In this document: positions 9,944-15,853 of the stretch, piece by piece
Layout of the letters: each line of letters opens with the position of its first letter
How positions within the stretch are numbered: position 1 is the first letter of the stretch
Assembly: GCA_029262055.1 (NCBI GenBank)
Contig: JAJDAD010000033.1
Coordinates: 1-64,000 of the forward strand
DNA: 64,000 nucleotides
Reading direction: 5' to 3'
From: Candidatus Zhuqueibacterota bacterium
Lineage (GTDB): Bacteria > Zhuqueibacterota > Zhuqueibacteria > Oceanimicrobiales > Oceanimicrobiaceae
Notes under the pieces: generated by a model
Told to the model about the DNA's origin: nothing
What the model saw: only the letters and a program-made list of their open reading frames with translations
Databases searched by the model: none
Program-made: the position numbers and the translations under genes

Positions 9944-10147
9944 TGCAGGCCCCAGTCGGGTTTGTAGAACACTTCTTATCTTTCGAAATCAACACCAGGA
10001 CAGAGCCGGCTCGGCGTTTACTAAGCAAGAGTTGCGTAACCCACGGAAAAGGTCACAAAAAAATTCAGATTCACTGTTCCGGAATATTCTTGCGATTGAA
10101 AAGACGGTTCCTTATTTTCTTCGAATGCCCGCAGCCCTGACCTGAAA

Positions 10148-10221: not shown

Positions 10222-10872
10222 GTGTCTCGTTCTACCCAAAAACACATTGCTGCGCTTCTGAGTGCTGCAAAGGAAGGCGATAAAGAATCTCTCCATCGTT
10301 TGTGCCGCGAATTAGAGAGATTCATCAGGGGTTATTTTGAAACGAGGTTTCACGATCCCGATCTGGTCGACGATCTTTGCCAGGACACTTATGTGCGCTT
10401 AATTGCCAACATCTTGACTGTGCGCGAACCTATGAAACTGAGGAGTTTCGTAGCCAAAGTCGCCATGCACGTTTCTAATGACTATCTGCGCAAAAAATAC
10501 CGGAATCTTCGGGAGCAATCGTTTGACGTAGACGAAACCAAAGTTGCCTCTGCCGACGGTGACCCGATCGGGGAATACGAGACGGAAGCCACGCTCTTGA
10601 GCAGAATGGATGTGAATCGGGCCTTGGCGCAATTGCCCGAACGTAGCAGAGCCATTTTGCTGCTCAAAATGGCAGGGTTCAAGTATGAAGAAATATCTAA
10701 GGAGTTTGACCTCTCGGTTAGTGGTGTGAAAATGCAAGTGAAGCGCAGTTTGGAGACGCTGAAAACTTTGCTCTATTCTGTGACTTTCTTTCTACTAACA
10801 ACGACACATATGTTTGAAAGCGCTAGATCCGCCTTTATCAATCAGCCAGGCCACCATGAGCAACTGCAATAG
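10222..10872 (+). CDS. ECF-type RNA polymerase sigma factor
   Basis: A 216-residue sigma-70 family protein. Region 2 covers about residues 25-95 (GYFETRFHDPDLVDDLCQDT, then SFVAKVAMHVSNDYLRKKYR). Region 4 covers about 135-185 (LAQLPERSRAILLLKMAGF, then YEEISKEFDLSVSGVKMQVK), the HTH that reads the -35 element. Regions 1 and 3 are absent, as in ECF sigmas. About 30 residues past region 4 are hydrophobic and then polar, which is unusual. The start is GTG at 10222 with AGGAAGG 13 bases upstream. The stop overlaps the start of the anti-sigma gene by 17 bases, so translation is probably coupled. Confidence 0.92.
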   Translation: MSRSTQKHIAALLSAAKEGDKESLHRLCRELERFIRGYFETRFHDPDLVDDLCQDTYVRLIANILTVREPMKLRSFVAKVAMHVSNDYLRKKYRNLREQSFDVDETKVASADGDPIGEYETEATLLSRMDVNRALAQLPERSRAILLLKMAGFKYEEISKEFDLSVSGVKMQVKRSLETLKTLLYSVTFFLLTTTHMFESARSAFINQPGHHEQLQ

Positions 10873-11872
10873 CATCCGGAAGAAACTCTTTCTCTTCGAT
10901 GAGGCGAGCGAAGACGAACAGCAAGAGATTCGCTCACATCTGTCTGCGTGCAAAGTTTGTCAAAGAGCTGCGGATGAACAGAAAGCGATTCTCGCAATGC
11001 TATCCCGGCAACATGAGGACACGGAATTGAGGCAGGAAGACGTAGTGCGCTACGCAATTCATACGCGTGCACCTGAGGAGGCTGATCATGACGGCAAGCG
11101 TCTCTCCCGGGCCGAGCGGATCAGAATAGAAGAAGCCATGGCTGCCGACCCTGTTGCTGCTGCCCGGGTCAGTTTGTTGGCGCGCGAATTCGAAAGCATC
11201 GAGCAATATTTGGAAGAAGAAGGGCTGCCAGACCTCGAACTCGCCCCCGGCCGGTCAAAGTCAGCGTTGCACAGATTTACTGCTCTGTTGAACCTGCCTG
11301 CGGAAGCACTGACTTTCTTTGCAAGAGCCGTGCGGCCCGCCAACCTGGGACTAGGACTGGCTGCAGCCAGCGTCCTGTTCGCCTTCCATTTTTCACTGCA
11401 AAGCAAAAATCCGTACCATGATTTGGCTGTTGTGCAGAAGTCCGAGTTCACATTTGTGACTCGCAGCAGTTCTACCAGTGCACTGAACACTGCGATCAAC
11501 GAATTCCAGAATCGCCGGTATGAACAAGTCATTGCCGGGTTGCAACAGCCGGTACGACAAGAGCAGGACAGGGAAACACAATTCAGCATGCGCTACCTGC
11601 TCGGCATTTGCCACTTGCTGCTCGCGGAGAAACAGCTTTTGTGGGTAAGACAGGATTTTGACCGTCAGCACGTTGAGCAGGCCATCGCCGAGCTTCGTAT
11701 GGCACAGGATCTGGCGTCCGTTGCGGGCGCCCGGGAAGGGTCCCTGTGGTATCTGACAAAAGCCCACCTGATGCTTGCGGATACAACAAACGCTGAGAGA
11801 ACACTGCGTGAGATTGTCGGTATGCGAGGCCGCTATTTTCGGCAAGCTAAAGAACTACTGAACAGACTTTAA
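10856..11872 (+). CDS. ZAS-type anti-sigma factor with periplasmic TPR-like domain
   Basis: 338 residues. The cytoplasmic N terminus carries the zinc anti-sigma pattern Cys4 ... His28-x3-Cys32-x2-Cys35 (HLSACKVC). A helical linker follows, then one transmembrane helix at about 162-181, then a helical TPR-like C-terminal domain (INEFQNRRYEQVIAGLQQP; LWYLTKAHLMLADTTNAERT) predicted to be periplasmic. Known ZAS proteins hold ECF sigma factors inactive until they are cleaved or change shape. The gene overlaps the sigma gene by 17 bases, which supports the pairing. I chose ATG 10856 (MSNCNS) rather than 10814, because it places the zinc motif at the N terminus as in the family. Confidence 0.82.
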   Translation: MSNCNSIRKKLFLFDEASEDEQQEIRSHLSACKVCQRAADEQKAILAMLSRQHEDTELRQEDVVRYAIHTRAPEEADHDGKRLSRAERIRIEEAMAADPVAAARVSLLAREFESIEQYLEEEGLPDLELAPGRSKSALHRFTALLNLPAEALTFFARAVRPANLGLGLAAASVLFAFHFSLQSKNPYHDLAVVQKSEFTFVTRSSSTSALNTAINEFQNRRYEQVIAGLQQPVRQEQDRETQFSMRYLLGICHLLLAEKQLLWVRQDFDRQHVEQAIAELRMAQDLASVAGAREGSLWYLTKAHLMLADTTNAERTLREIVGMRGRYFRQAKELLNRL

Positions 11873-11903
11873 GTGAATCCTTATCCAGGGATTGGAGGTC
11901 CAC

Positions 11904-14900
11904 GTGCAAAACGGACTTGCACTAGGCTTGGCGTTATGTCTGCTTAGCGTAACAATCGGTGTCACTGCATCATCACCCGGCCAGCGCAGCGTTGCGGAAG
12001 CCTACCGCCAGGCAGTCATGCAGGTCAACTCGAATGATTACCGCGGTGCGATAACTGTCCTGCAAGCCATCATTTCAGACCATCCCCATTTGGAACAGAC
12101 TTACAAGTTGGCGGTTGATCTCTATATTTTTATGGGGGAATTGCAGGAAGGGGAGTCCTACTTCCGCTCACTGCTCACAGCTTCGCCGTCCAACTCCCTC
12201 GCACATTACGGCCTGGCCAGAATTCAATTTCGCCAGCAGAAATATCCTGAAGCGCTGGCCGGTCTGAAGAACGTCATCAAGTTGAATCCGGACTACGCTC
12301 CTGCTTACGGCTATCGCGAGGGGCTCCCGGAAGTCTACCGGGCGTTGAAGCGGCTGGATGACGGCGTGTCATTTTTTCAATCGGAAATAGCCCGGGATGC
12401 CCGGAACGCCTTTGCCCACCTCGGCCTGGCGCGCTGTCTGATCCGTAAGTACGACTGGGACAGCGCTTCATCTGAGCTGCGTAAAAGCCTCCGATTAAAG
12501 CCGGATTTGCTGCTGGCCTGGCATGCAAGTGTCCATATTCAGTGGCGGCAGAGCAAGTACAGCCGGGTCATTCAAACCGCAGACTCGCTTGCGGCACTAG
12601 CCACTGAGCGCAAAGACTATGAGATGCTGGCTTACGCCAACATGATGCTGGGTAACGCCCATCTCCGGCTTGGTGACTACAGCACTGCCCTGAGCTTTTT
12701 GCAGAGTTCCCTGGGCAATGCCCGGCGCTGTGGTGATTTGCAAAGAAAGGCGGCCTGTCTCAACACCATAGCGGCCACCTATGCCATGATGGGAAGTTAC
12801 GATCGGTCGCAGACTTATTTCCGGGAGGCGTTAATGCTTGCGCAACAAAGCGGCAGCGCCAAATTGGAAACACGCGCTCTCCTCAACATAGGCAGCGCCT
12901 ACAGGGACGACGGCAAGTTCGCGCAGGCCAGCAGCCATTTTGAAAAAGCCCTGCACCAGAGCAAAAGCCACGGGCTGAAAATCGTTGAATGCCACGCGCT
13001 AACAAATCTGGCGGAGATCAGCTCCCTGCAGCGCGACGATGTGGCCGCAACCAATTGCTACACGATGGCGTTAAGTATCGCCAGGAGAATCGCAGACCGG
13101 GGCCTGGAGGCGTACATTTTGCGGGGGCTTGGCAGTCACATGTACCAGTCGGGCCACTATGCGACAGCTCTGACCTACTTTTCCGAAGCGCGTGCCATCG
13201 GCCAGTCCATTGATGACGCCCAGATTGTCTGGGAAGCTAATTCCGGCCTCGGTGCGTGTTACGCGAAACAGAATGCGCTGCCATCGGCCATCCACCATTT
13301 TGAGGAAGCGGTGCGCTTGTATGATGAGGTGCGCAACAGCCTAACGCTGGAATTCCTCTCGGACAACTTCCTGGATAGCAAGCATGAGGTGCATCCACCG
13401 CTCGTCCGGCTCCTGGCTGAGAGCGGCAACAAGGAGAAGGCATTTCACTACGCCGAAAAATACAAGGCCAAATCTCTGCTTGATATTCTCTTGCAAAGGC
13501 AGATTCTTTTGGCAGATATGCTACCGGACACCACCCGAAACCTGCTCAAGAACCTGAGTCAGCAGATCGAAGAGCTTCGCAACGGGAAAGAAACCGGCGA
13601 GCCCGGAATCCCTGAGGATGAAATCGCCGGCGGAGTTCGACTGCGTAAGGCGGCGGAATTACAATTACAATGGGCACAAGAGATTCGGCGCATCTCGCAG
13701 GCTCACGGCAACTATCTGCAATTGACCAATCCTGATATTGTCGACAGCGATTTCCTGCAAAACTCCATACTAAAGCCACATCAGGCTTTGGTCGAATATG
13801 TCGTCGGCACAGAATCCATTTCTGCTTTTGTGATCACACCCGATAGTCTTTTCTATACTGAGATCCATACATCCCGGGCAGAGCTTCACCAAATGCTGCG
13901 CAATCTCAGCCCAGTTTATGACCAGGGCAAGGCCCGGACCGATATGCTTCTGAATTCCCTGGCTGTCGACTTGAAGGTACGGCCGGCCTTTAGAATTTAT
14001 GAAACGTTAGTCAAGCCGTTACAACCTTACTTCGCCGGCAAGAGCCATTTGATCATTGTGCCGGACGACTGGTTGCACCATCTACCATTTGAATTACTGG
14101 TGTCGGACACGAGCCGGATCGAGACAGATTACGATTTTGCCAATGTGCCCTTTCTGATTGAAGACTTTACAATTTCTTATGTCCCGGCGGCGACTTTGCT
14201 CAACCCGGAACTTCACTCACTGAAAGAGCCAGTCAAAGGCCTGCTGGCTGTTGGCAATCCCACGTTTGTGCAGGAGCCTGGCCCGCCCTTAACCAGAGCA
14301 GCGGTTTTTGGCGGGGCCCTCGCTGCTGCGGGCGCCACCAATCTGCTTGAAGCGGAAAGAGAGGTAAACAGCATTGCCGGGATCATCGATTCGCCATCAA
14401 CAACGGTCTTAACGGGAGCAGATGCGACTGAAGCATCTTTTAAGGCCAGGGCCGCTGACTATCAGGTCATTCACCTGGCAACACATTTTGTCAATAACGA
14501 CAAGGAGCCGCTTTATTCAGCAATTCCCCTGTCCCCGCCGGTTGCGGGCGTAGAAGATGGTTCGCTGCAAACATACGAAATCTTCAATCTGACCCTTAAC
14601 GCCGACCTGGCGGTACTGAGTTCCTGCAGTTCGGGCGCCGGGAAAATCCATCGCGGTGAAGGATTGATGGGTCTGTACCGGGCTTTTTTGTACGCAAACA
14701 CACCGAGCCTGGTGCTTAGTTCGTGGGCTGTAGAGGACAATTCTACCTCCGCGGTCATGCAGAGTTTCTACAAATATCTGAAACAAGGAAACAACAAGGC
14801 GGAAGCCCTGCGCAAGGCCAAACTGGACTTCCTGAACGCGGCCAGTCCAACCGGCAAGGATCCCTACTACTGGGCTCCATTTGTCCTGGTCGGGAATTGG

Positions 14901-15023
14901 CAGCCCATAGATTTCTCGCGAACCGAGCGGGTGAATCCGATTTTGTGGATCCTGTCCATTCTGGCGGTGGTCGGTCTCCTGACGACCATATTCCGCATGA
15001 AAAAACTCGCATACTCTCGTTGA
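11904..15023 (+). CDS. Membrane-anchored TPR-CHAT protein (caspase-like protease)
   Basis: 1039 residues. An N-terminal signal peptide (about 1-24) is followed by roughly ten TPR units to about residue 500, then a charged helical linker (about 520-590) and a CHAT domain from about 660 to 995. The catalytic dyad of the caspase-like fold is present: His861 in VIHLATH and Cys908 in LSSCSSGAG. A transmembrane helix at about 1011-1030 and a basic tail (RMKKLAYSR) anchor it, so TPR and CHAT parts should face the periplasm. The start is GTG 11904 behind GGAGG; an in-frame TTG at 11892 overlaps that site. It lies 31 bases after the anti-sigma gene, in the same operon. The substrate is unknown; the anti-sigma is the obvious candidate. 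Confidence 0.92.
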   Translation: MQNGLALGLALCLLSVTIGVTASSPGQRSVAEAYRQAVMQVNSNDYRGAITVLQAIISDHPHLEQTYKLAVDLYIFMGELQEGESYFRSLLTASPSNSLAHYGLARIQFRQQKYPEALAGLKNVIKLNPDYAPAYGYREGLPEVYRALKRLDDGVSFFQSEIARDARNAFAHLGLARCLIRKYDWDSASSELRKSLRLKPDLLLAWHASVHIQWRQSKYSRVIQTADSLAALATERKDYEMLAYANMMLGNAHLRLGDYSTALSFLQSSLGNARRCGDLQRKAACLNTIAATYAMMGSYDRSQTYFREALMLAQQSGSAKLETRALLNIGSAYRDDGKFAQASSHFEKALHQSKSHGLKIVECHALTNLAEISSLQRDDVAATNCYTMALSIARRIADRGLEAYILRGLGSHMYQSGHYATALTYFSEARAIGQSIDDAQIVWEANSGLGACYAKQNALPSAIHHFEEAVRLYDEVRNSLTLEFLSDNFLDSKHEVHPPLVRLLAESGNKEKAFHYAEKYKAKSLLDILLQRQILLADMLPDTTRNLLKNLSQQIEELRNGKETGEPGIPEDEIAGGVRLRKAAELQLQWAQEIRRISQAHGNYLQLTNPDIVDSDFLQNSILKPHQALVEYVVGTESISAFVITPDSLFYTEIHTSRAELHQMLRNLSPVYDQGKARTDMLLNSLAVDLKVRPAFRIYETLVKPLQPYFAGKSHLIIVPDDWLHHLPFELLVSDTSRIETDYDFANVPFLIEDFTISYVPAATLLNPELHSLKEPVKGLLAVGNPTFVQEPGPPLTRAAVFGGALAAAGATNLLEAEREVNSIAGIIDSPSTTVLTGADATEASFKARAADYQVIHLATHFVNNDKEPLYSAIPLSPPVAGVEDGSLQTYEIFNLTLNADLAVLSSCSSGAGKIHRGEGLMGLYRAFLYANTPSLVLSSWAVEDNSTSAVMQSFYKYLKQGNNKAEALRKAKLDFLNAASPTGKDPYYWAPFVLVGNWQPIDFSRTERVNPILWILSILAVVGLLTTIFRMKKLAYSR

Positions 15024-15265: not shown

Positions 15266-15853
15266 ATGAAAAGAAGCCGAGGATTTCTAAGAACAGCCTG
15301 CAGCGCCGTCCTACTGTTAAACCTTGCTTTGCTGAATTCGAGTTGCTGGCAGGATTCACCGACCGGACCCACTGACCAGGGGCGACAGCGAGTGCGGATT
15401 CTTGGGTTCGCTGAGACAAGTCAGAGTTTGAAGAAACATGTTACCAGTTCGAAGATGGTCAAGGCCGGTGAGGGAGGTACACTTGAGCTTCTTGCAGCAG
15501 GCGACACACTGGGTAATTCGGCCGGCATCCAGGCGTCGCTGATCATCGCGCCCGGGTCCATCGACGCAGACACGGAGATCAGTTTTAGCATGGACGCGGC
15601 CACGCTCGATTTCCGTTTTGACCCCAGCGGCCTGGTCTTTAGAACACCGGCGTTGTTTAACGTGGAGGCCCATGGCATCGAGCCTTCTGGAGTCGTCGCG
15701 ACCGGCGTGCAACTTCTGTATGACGACGTGGAGGGCAACCAGTGGGACAGAATGCCACACGAGGGCATCGTTCTGGAGCCGAGCAGCGGAAGGGTCAGGC
15801 TTGTGAATGGCCGCATACCACATTTTTCCCGCTATATCCTTGCTGACGAATAA
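15266..15853 (+). CDS. Lipoprotein with ZU5-like domain ending in an HFS motif
   Basis: 195 residues with a lipobox (LNSSC, Cys27). The body reads like a ZU5-type beta-sandwich: SLIIAPGSIDADTEISFSM then FDPSGLVFRTPALFNVEA. The chain ends with HFSRYILADE (His186-Phe187-Ser188). Bacterial ZU5-like domains often end in HFS, and in eukaryotic ZU5-UPA proteins such as PIDD an HFS site self-cleaves between Phe and Ser; cleavage here is speculation. GGGGAG lies about 8 bases before the ATG. The gene is preceded by a candidate sigma-54 promoter and lies between the TPR-CHAT gene and the TPR/activator pair. Confidence 0.75.
   Translation: MKRSRGFLRTACSAVLLLNLALLNSSCWQDSPTGPTDQGRQRVRILGFAETSQSLKKHVTSSKMVKAGEGGTLELLAAGDTLGNSAGIQASLIIAPGSIDADTEISFSMDAATLDFRFDPSGLVFRTPALFNVEAHGIEPSGVVATGVQLLYDDVEGNQWDRMPHEGIVLEPSSGRVRLVNGRIPHFSRYILADE

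Follow-up and report, generated by a model that had tools for sequence, protein, structure and literature searches.

In the Craspase system (Cas7-11-Csx29, Csx30 and CASP-sigma), the TPR-CHAT protein Csx29 cleaves the inhibitor of an ECF sigma factor in the cytoplasm, and mutation of its residues H615 and C658 abolished cleavage (PMC10028731). DdvA of Myxococcus xanthus is the anti-sigma factor of the ECF factor DdvS (PMC4374960), and its PDB entries (8rot and 8rw5) bear the title transmembrane anti-sigma factor and the molecule name CHAT domain-containing protein. ECF54 sigma factors have CHAT, subtilase or carboxypeptidase genes in their neighbourhood; proteolytic control has been proposed for them, with no anti-sigma factor (PMC8999054). 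In the CalpL/CalpT/CalpS system, a protease cleaves the anti-sigma factor of an ECF sigma factor (PMC11417357).

Here we describe an operon of three plus-strand genes (10222-15023) in the window, by which we mean the whole 64,000-nucleotide stretch of Candidatus Zhuqueibacterota DNA that was analysed. The genes encode an ECF sigma factor, a zinc anti-sigma factor and a TPR-CHAT protein. The likeness to Craspase lies in the TPR-CHAT architecture with a His-Cys dyad, and Foldseek ranks Csx29 structures near the top of its matches to the window CHAT protein; however, Csx29 works inside the cell and needs target RNA to become active, whereas the window protein is predicted to be exported and anchored, and is accompanied by a one-TM zinc anti-sigma factor. 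DdvA, the best Foldseek match, is a CHAT-bearing transmembrane anti-sigma factor by the naming of its PDB entries, although it is one polypeptide where the window has two separate ORFs (10856-11872 and 11904-15023). As at ECF54 loci, an ECF sigma gene lies near a CHAT gene, but the window locus has an anti-sigma factor. The protease of the CalpL/CalpT/CalpS system differs from the window CHAT: it is of Lon type, carries a SAVED domain and is switched on by cyclic tetra-adenylate. With the RseA-DegS-RseP pathway of sigma E the locus shares a one-TM anti-sigma factor, a proposed first cut on the outside and the presence of an M50 site-2 protease. DegS is a PDZ serine protease, whereas the candidate site-1 enzyme here is a CHAT cysteine protease, in which Pfam finds TPR and CHAT domains only and not the trypsin-like domain with PDZ of the DegS family.

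Craspase and DdvA are close precedents for the window system. The first-pass annotation had called a site-1 role something not known to be described for CHAT proteins, which is too strong in view of Craspase, DdvA and ECF54. A literature search found neither an exported CHAT protein acting as site-1 protease of a separate anti-sigma factor nor the linker arginine described below, which is weak evidence, since subscription papers lay mostly outside the search.

Proposed mechanism

We put at roughly 60% the probability that this operon works as a switch by regulated intramembrane proteolysis, with a caspase-fold CHAT enzyme as the site-1 protease that cuts after Arg203 of the anti-sigma factor. 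The anti-sigma factor would grip the ECF sigma factor through a cytoplasmic zinc domain and cross the membrane once, and the TPR-CHAT protein would be exported, with its C-terminal TM segment as anchor. Export and C-terminal anchoring place the protease domain outside, on the side where the TPR domain of the anti-sigma factor lies, and the TPR regions of the two proteins may contact each other, as the first-pass annotation suggested. A signal in the envelope, sensed through the TPR parts, would let CHAT act, and the linker of the anti-sigma factor would be cut after Arg203 (FVTR/SSS), at a distance of about 22 residues from the membrane on its outer side. An RseP-like site-2 protease would then cut the leftover stub, and this second cut would free the sigma factor. 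An RseP-like M50 protease with the HELGH motif is encoded beside a dxr-like gene on host contig C58, so a site-2 enzyme is present.

The operon, topology, intact dyad, recurrence, fusions and arginine enrichment are computed features; signal sensing, Arg203 cleavage, site-2 cleavage and sigma release are the four steps that we infer. The earlier proposal that CHAT is a site-1 protease gains indirect support from synteny, the dyad, the RseP-like enzyme and the linker arginine, which makes the cut probable. For the broader proposition that extracytoplasmic caspase-fold site-1 proteases, split or fused, control ECF sigma factors across several phyla through a cut between a juxtamembrane arginine and a following glycine or serine, we would give even odds. 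The proposed mechanism, if true, would give the many exported CHAT proteins of this phylum a definite target and cleavage position, would set a cysteine-protease route for envelope signals beside the DegS-type enzymes, and would unite Craspase, DdvA and the ECF-CHAT neighbourhoods as versions of a single protease-anti-sigma design. The predicted Arg203 makes the hypothesis checkable at a single residue.

Organisation of the operon

The first gene (10222-10872, plus strand) encodes an ECF sigma-70 family factor (TIGR02937, E=1.8e-22; Sigma70_r2 and r4_2 above cutoff). Directly after it, in the position expected of an ECF anti-sigma gene, the ORF for a 338-residue membrane anti-sigma factor (ATG 10856-11872, plus strand) overlaps the 3’ end of the sigma ORF by 17 nt. 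The third ORF, for the 1039-residue TPR-CHAT protein (11904-15023, plus strand), starts at a GTG with GGAGG 5 nt upstream; its AlphaFold model has a pTM of 0.79. Six CHAT genes are present in the host genome, whose assembly spans 5.7 Mb.

Upstream of the operon, 174 bp from the sigma ORF, lies AAAGGTCACAA (10048-10058, plus strand), a candidate promoter element or operator. It has three exact copies in the host genome: this one, a second ahead of a paralogous sigma-CHAT operon (C11:167), and a third within an unrelated gene on C67. It also occurs upstream of the sigma gene at two loci of other genomes, exactly in L022 and with one mismatch in L023, and its position upstream of these sigma genes suggests a common regulation of this operon subtype. 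The GGTCACAA element was spotted by eye in the upstream sequences and not through a spaced-dyad search, which across seven upstream regions found no 4-mer pair common to four or more of them.

In most close relatives (L021, L022, L024, L041 and L043) the sigma factor has a hydrophobic segment near its C-terminus, and a C-terminal stretch of the window sigma factor (10222-10872), LLYSVTFFLLTTTHMF, resembles it.

The anti-sigma factor

The zinc motif, the TM segment and the TPR-like periplasmic domain read from the sequence in the first-pass annotation are all borne out. The motif H28xxxC32xxC35 (10937-10960, plus strand) is the HxxxCxxC of zinc-binding ECF anti-sigma factors, lies on the cytoplasmic side and is invariant in the five closest sequences; Pfam zf-HC2 matches the protein with E=4e-4 and 20.8 bits, just under the cutoff of 22.2. 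The zinc domain is predicted to hold the ECF sigma factor. The only hydrophobic segment, residues 163-181 (11342-11398, plus strand), has a weak mean Kyte-Doolittle value of 1.56, against 1.99-2.68 in relatives. Residues 208-338 (11477-11869, plus strand) form a predicted extracytoplasmic helical domain (AlphaFold pLDDT mostly 91-98) that Foldseek matches to the periplasmic TPR domain of YbgF (TMt 0.84), so that the label TPR-like is correct. A scan of genome contigs with the window anti-sigma factor as query found no relatives.

A second HxxxCxxC lies about 66 residues after the first in the anti-sigma factors of L021, L022, L023, L024 and L043, and is absent from the window copy; double motifs are also present in more distant anti-sigma factors.

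Recurrence and fusion

The order of sigma factor, one-TM anti-sigma factor and exported CHAT protein recurs in five other genomes (L022, L023, L024, L041 and L043) and in a paralogous host locus, L021. Beyond these close relatives, a phylum sample was drawn of 60 further stretches with 63 CHAT genes, picked from the search listing blind to their neighbours, with giant frames set aside along with the loci that the anti-sigma factor had already yielded. An ECF sigma gene lay within 4 kb of 31 of the 63 sampled CHAT genes, compared with 3 of 44 large control ORFs (Fisher p=1.9e-6) and with the 6% that the density of sigma genes in the host genome would predict; for about half of the sample no ECF sigma gene was nearby. 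At nearly all linked loci the gene after the sigma gene encodes a protein with one TM segment and about 100-190 residues beyond it, and the CHAT gene belongs to the operon at some loci and runs convergently towards the sigma-anti-sigma pair at others. Loci of this kind are also present in Bacteroidota, Acidobacteriota and a gammaproteobacterium, and the association of ECF sigma factors with CHAT proteins is widespread.

The paralogous operon on host contig C11 (L021:304-5180) encodes a CHAT protein about 40% identical to that of the window, and is followed by genes for a Ser/Thr kinase-AAA-TPR protein and a solute-binding protein. A third host CHAT gene with a sigma factor and a one-TM anti-sigma candidate lies on contig C88 (L034:8122-13447), where a 153-aa gene sits between the anti-sigma candidate and CHAT. 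At L062:9033-11918 a CHAT protein close to the window’s had no sigma gene found in its stretch, and translated fragments of another CHAT lie upstream. CHAT matches were found in 74 of 82 genomes of the phylum, and in many of them CHAT domains lie inside open frames of about 2,500-2,900 aa.

In Acidobacteriota the two partners are joined. Most CHAT proteins of a set comprising L226 and its relatives L254-L263 carry HxxxCxxC, a TM segment and TPR-CHAT in one chain, and an ECF sigma ORF adjoins in 7 of 10 loci. Entries 8rot and 8rw5 suggest that DdvA is likewise a fusion of anti-sigma factor and CHAT. A phmmer search of the PDB with a fused Acidobacteriota protein found nothing.

An arginine in the extracytoplasmic linker

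The candidate cleavage motif FVT-R203-SSS lies in the extracytoplasmic linker of the anti-sigma factor (11453-11473, plus strand; Arg codon 11462-11464), and T202 and R203 are invariant in the five closest sequences. Caspase-fold proteases, separase and paracaspases among them, commonly take arginine at P1. Among non-redundant sequences, arginine followed by glycine or serine 14-34 residues after the TM segment was found in 24/42 CHAT-linked anti-sigma factors compared with 1/32 unlinked ones (p=3.5e-7), the motif having been discovered within the same data that supply most of its statistics. In the CHAT-linked set the motif peaks 20-29 residues after the TM segment, and none of 5000 shuffles reached 24 sequences with it. 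Where the anti-sigma and CHAT genes are adjacent, an arginine of any context is present at positions 18-31 in 24/26 cases (14/32 unlinked), with about a third of adjacent pairs having no R[SG] in the set window.

A prespecified test on newly fetched loci (41 stretches, one dropped as a repeat of a discovery locus) was borderline. R[SGA] was present in 5 of ten partners, some of which may not be true anti-sigma factors, and in 6/32 controls (one-sided p=0.064), the relaxation from R[SG] to R[SGA] having raised the control rate to that figure. With R[SG], a narrowing made post hoc, the counts were 3/10 and 1/32 (p=0.036). Across seven aligned fusions R195 is invariant within a gap-rich, variable linker, about 40 residues from the TM segment. 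The recurring arginine hints at where CHAT may cut the anti-sigma factor, and is compatible with CHAT as an arginine-specific site-1 protease and the RseP-like enzyme as site 2.

These results bear on the best-surviving alternative, in which CHAT is mainly an output: the sigma factor would autoregulate the operon, the exported CHAT protein would act on envelope or foreign proteins, and another site-1 protease would cut the anti-sigma factor. The last place of CHAT in the operon, the upstream element that suggests the operon to be one regulated unit and the many exported CHAT proteins without an ECF neighbour all fit such a role. It does not account for the many loci at which CHAT is convergent to the sigma-anti-sigma pair and so lies outside its operon, for the fusion of anti-sigma factor and CHAT in one protein, or for the enrichment of the linker arginine in CHAT-linked anti-sigma factors, and we consider it unlikely.

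The CHAT domain and its dyad

Residues of about 30-480 of the window CHAT protein (11991-13343, plus strand) form a TPR superhelix, with many Pfam TPR matches and AlphaFold helices, and residues 694-998 (13983-14897, plus strand) form the CHAT domain (PF12770, CHAT peptidase; E=4.5e-63, 213.8 bits against a cutoff of 24). A phmmer search of the PDB with the window CHAT region gave no match; DdvA and Csx29 were reached with a profile built from 34 CHATs. In the profile alignment His861 (14484-14486, plus strand) and Cys908 (14625-14627, plus strand) line up with the motifs that contain H615 and C658 in Csx29. Across ECF-linked CHAT proteins the cysteine is present in 50/50 and the histidine in 48/50, the remaining two carrying HFATTAHF. 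From this intact His-Cys dyad, as expected of a CHAT peptidase, the window protein is predicted to be a protease.

The partners of the two CHAT proteins with an altered histidine motif (L097 and L113) have linkers reading VTR-ES and TTR-ET, nearer the membrane. Autoprocessing of CHAT at Arg-Gly in the loop between its halves was also considered; R[GS] occurs in 13/35 ECF-linked loops, close to the shuffle mean of 12.2, and autoprocessing is therefore not supported.

The near-invariance of the dyad argues against a second alternative, in which CHAT is a non-cutting co-sensor that binds the TPR domain of the anti-sigma factor and either protects it or changes its conformation, CHAT being used as a protease elsewhere. 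Both partners do have TPR domains, and DdvA-type fusions could signal by conformation, but such a co-sensor would also leave the recurring linker arginine unexplained. We hold it to be less probable still than the output role, and prefer CHAT as the protease that cuts the anti-sigma factor.

Export and topology of the CHAT protein

A signal peptide at the GTG start and a C-terminal TM segment with a basic tail, both proposed in the first-pass annotation, are confirmed by hydrophobicity and by the family. The predicted signal peptide (11904-11969, plus strand) has its hydrophobic segment at residues 4-22 (Kyte-Doolittle 2.12) and a predicted cleavage site after VTA22, and the C-terminal anchor at residues 1012-1030 (14937-14993, plus strand; 2.36) is followed by the tail RMKKLAYSR. 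The C-terminal TM segment is present in every recurrent operon with a complete CHAT gene, that of L043 being cut by a contig end. Export calls were made with our own signal-peptide rule together with relatives, and the rule was satisfied by 41/47 ECF-linked CHAT proteins; among the controls, 1/55 sigma factors passed it and 11/402 segments from inside CHAT proteins. The strongest support for export comes from the family, because the n-region is basic in relatives and has no lysine or arginine in the window protein. The idea that export is a hallmark of ECF-linked CHAT proteins was rejected, because unlinked ones score similarly (29/36).

In the fusions, one TM segment separates the zinc domain from TPR-CHAT, so that within one molecule CHAT and the zinc domain lie on opposite sides of the membrane. 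The claim that CHAT and the sensor domain of the anti-sigma factor share the extracytoplasmic face is therefore well supported, on hydrophobic segments, on family-wide conservation and on the fusions, which enforce that face. That the topology has been misread, with a cytoplasmic CHAT protein and a false signal peptide, would suit the window’s non-basic n-region but is very improbable given the standard n-, h- and c-regions of relatives, the C-terminal TM segment with its basic tail and the arrangement of the fusions.

Beyond the end of the CHAT gene, the window encodes a putative lipoprotein (15266-15853) with no Pfam match, a homologue of which (34% identical) lies near the sigma-CHAT operon in L023.
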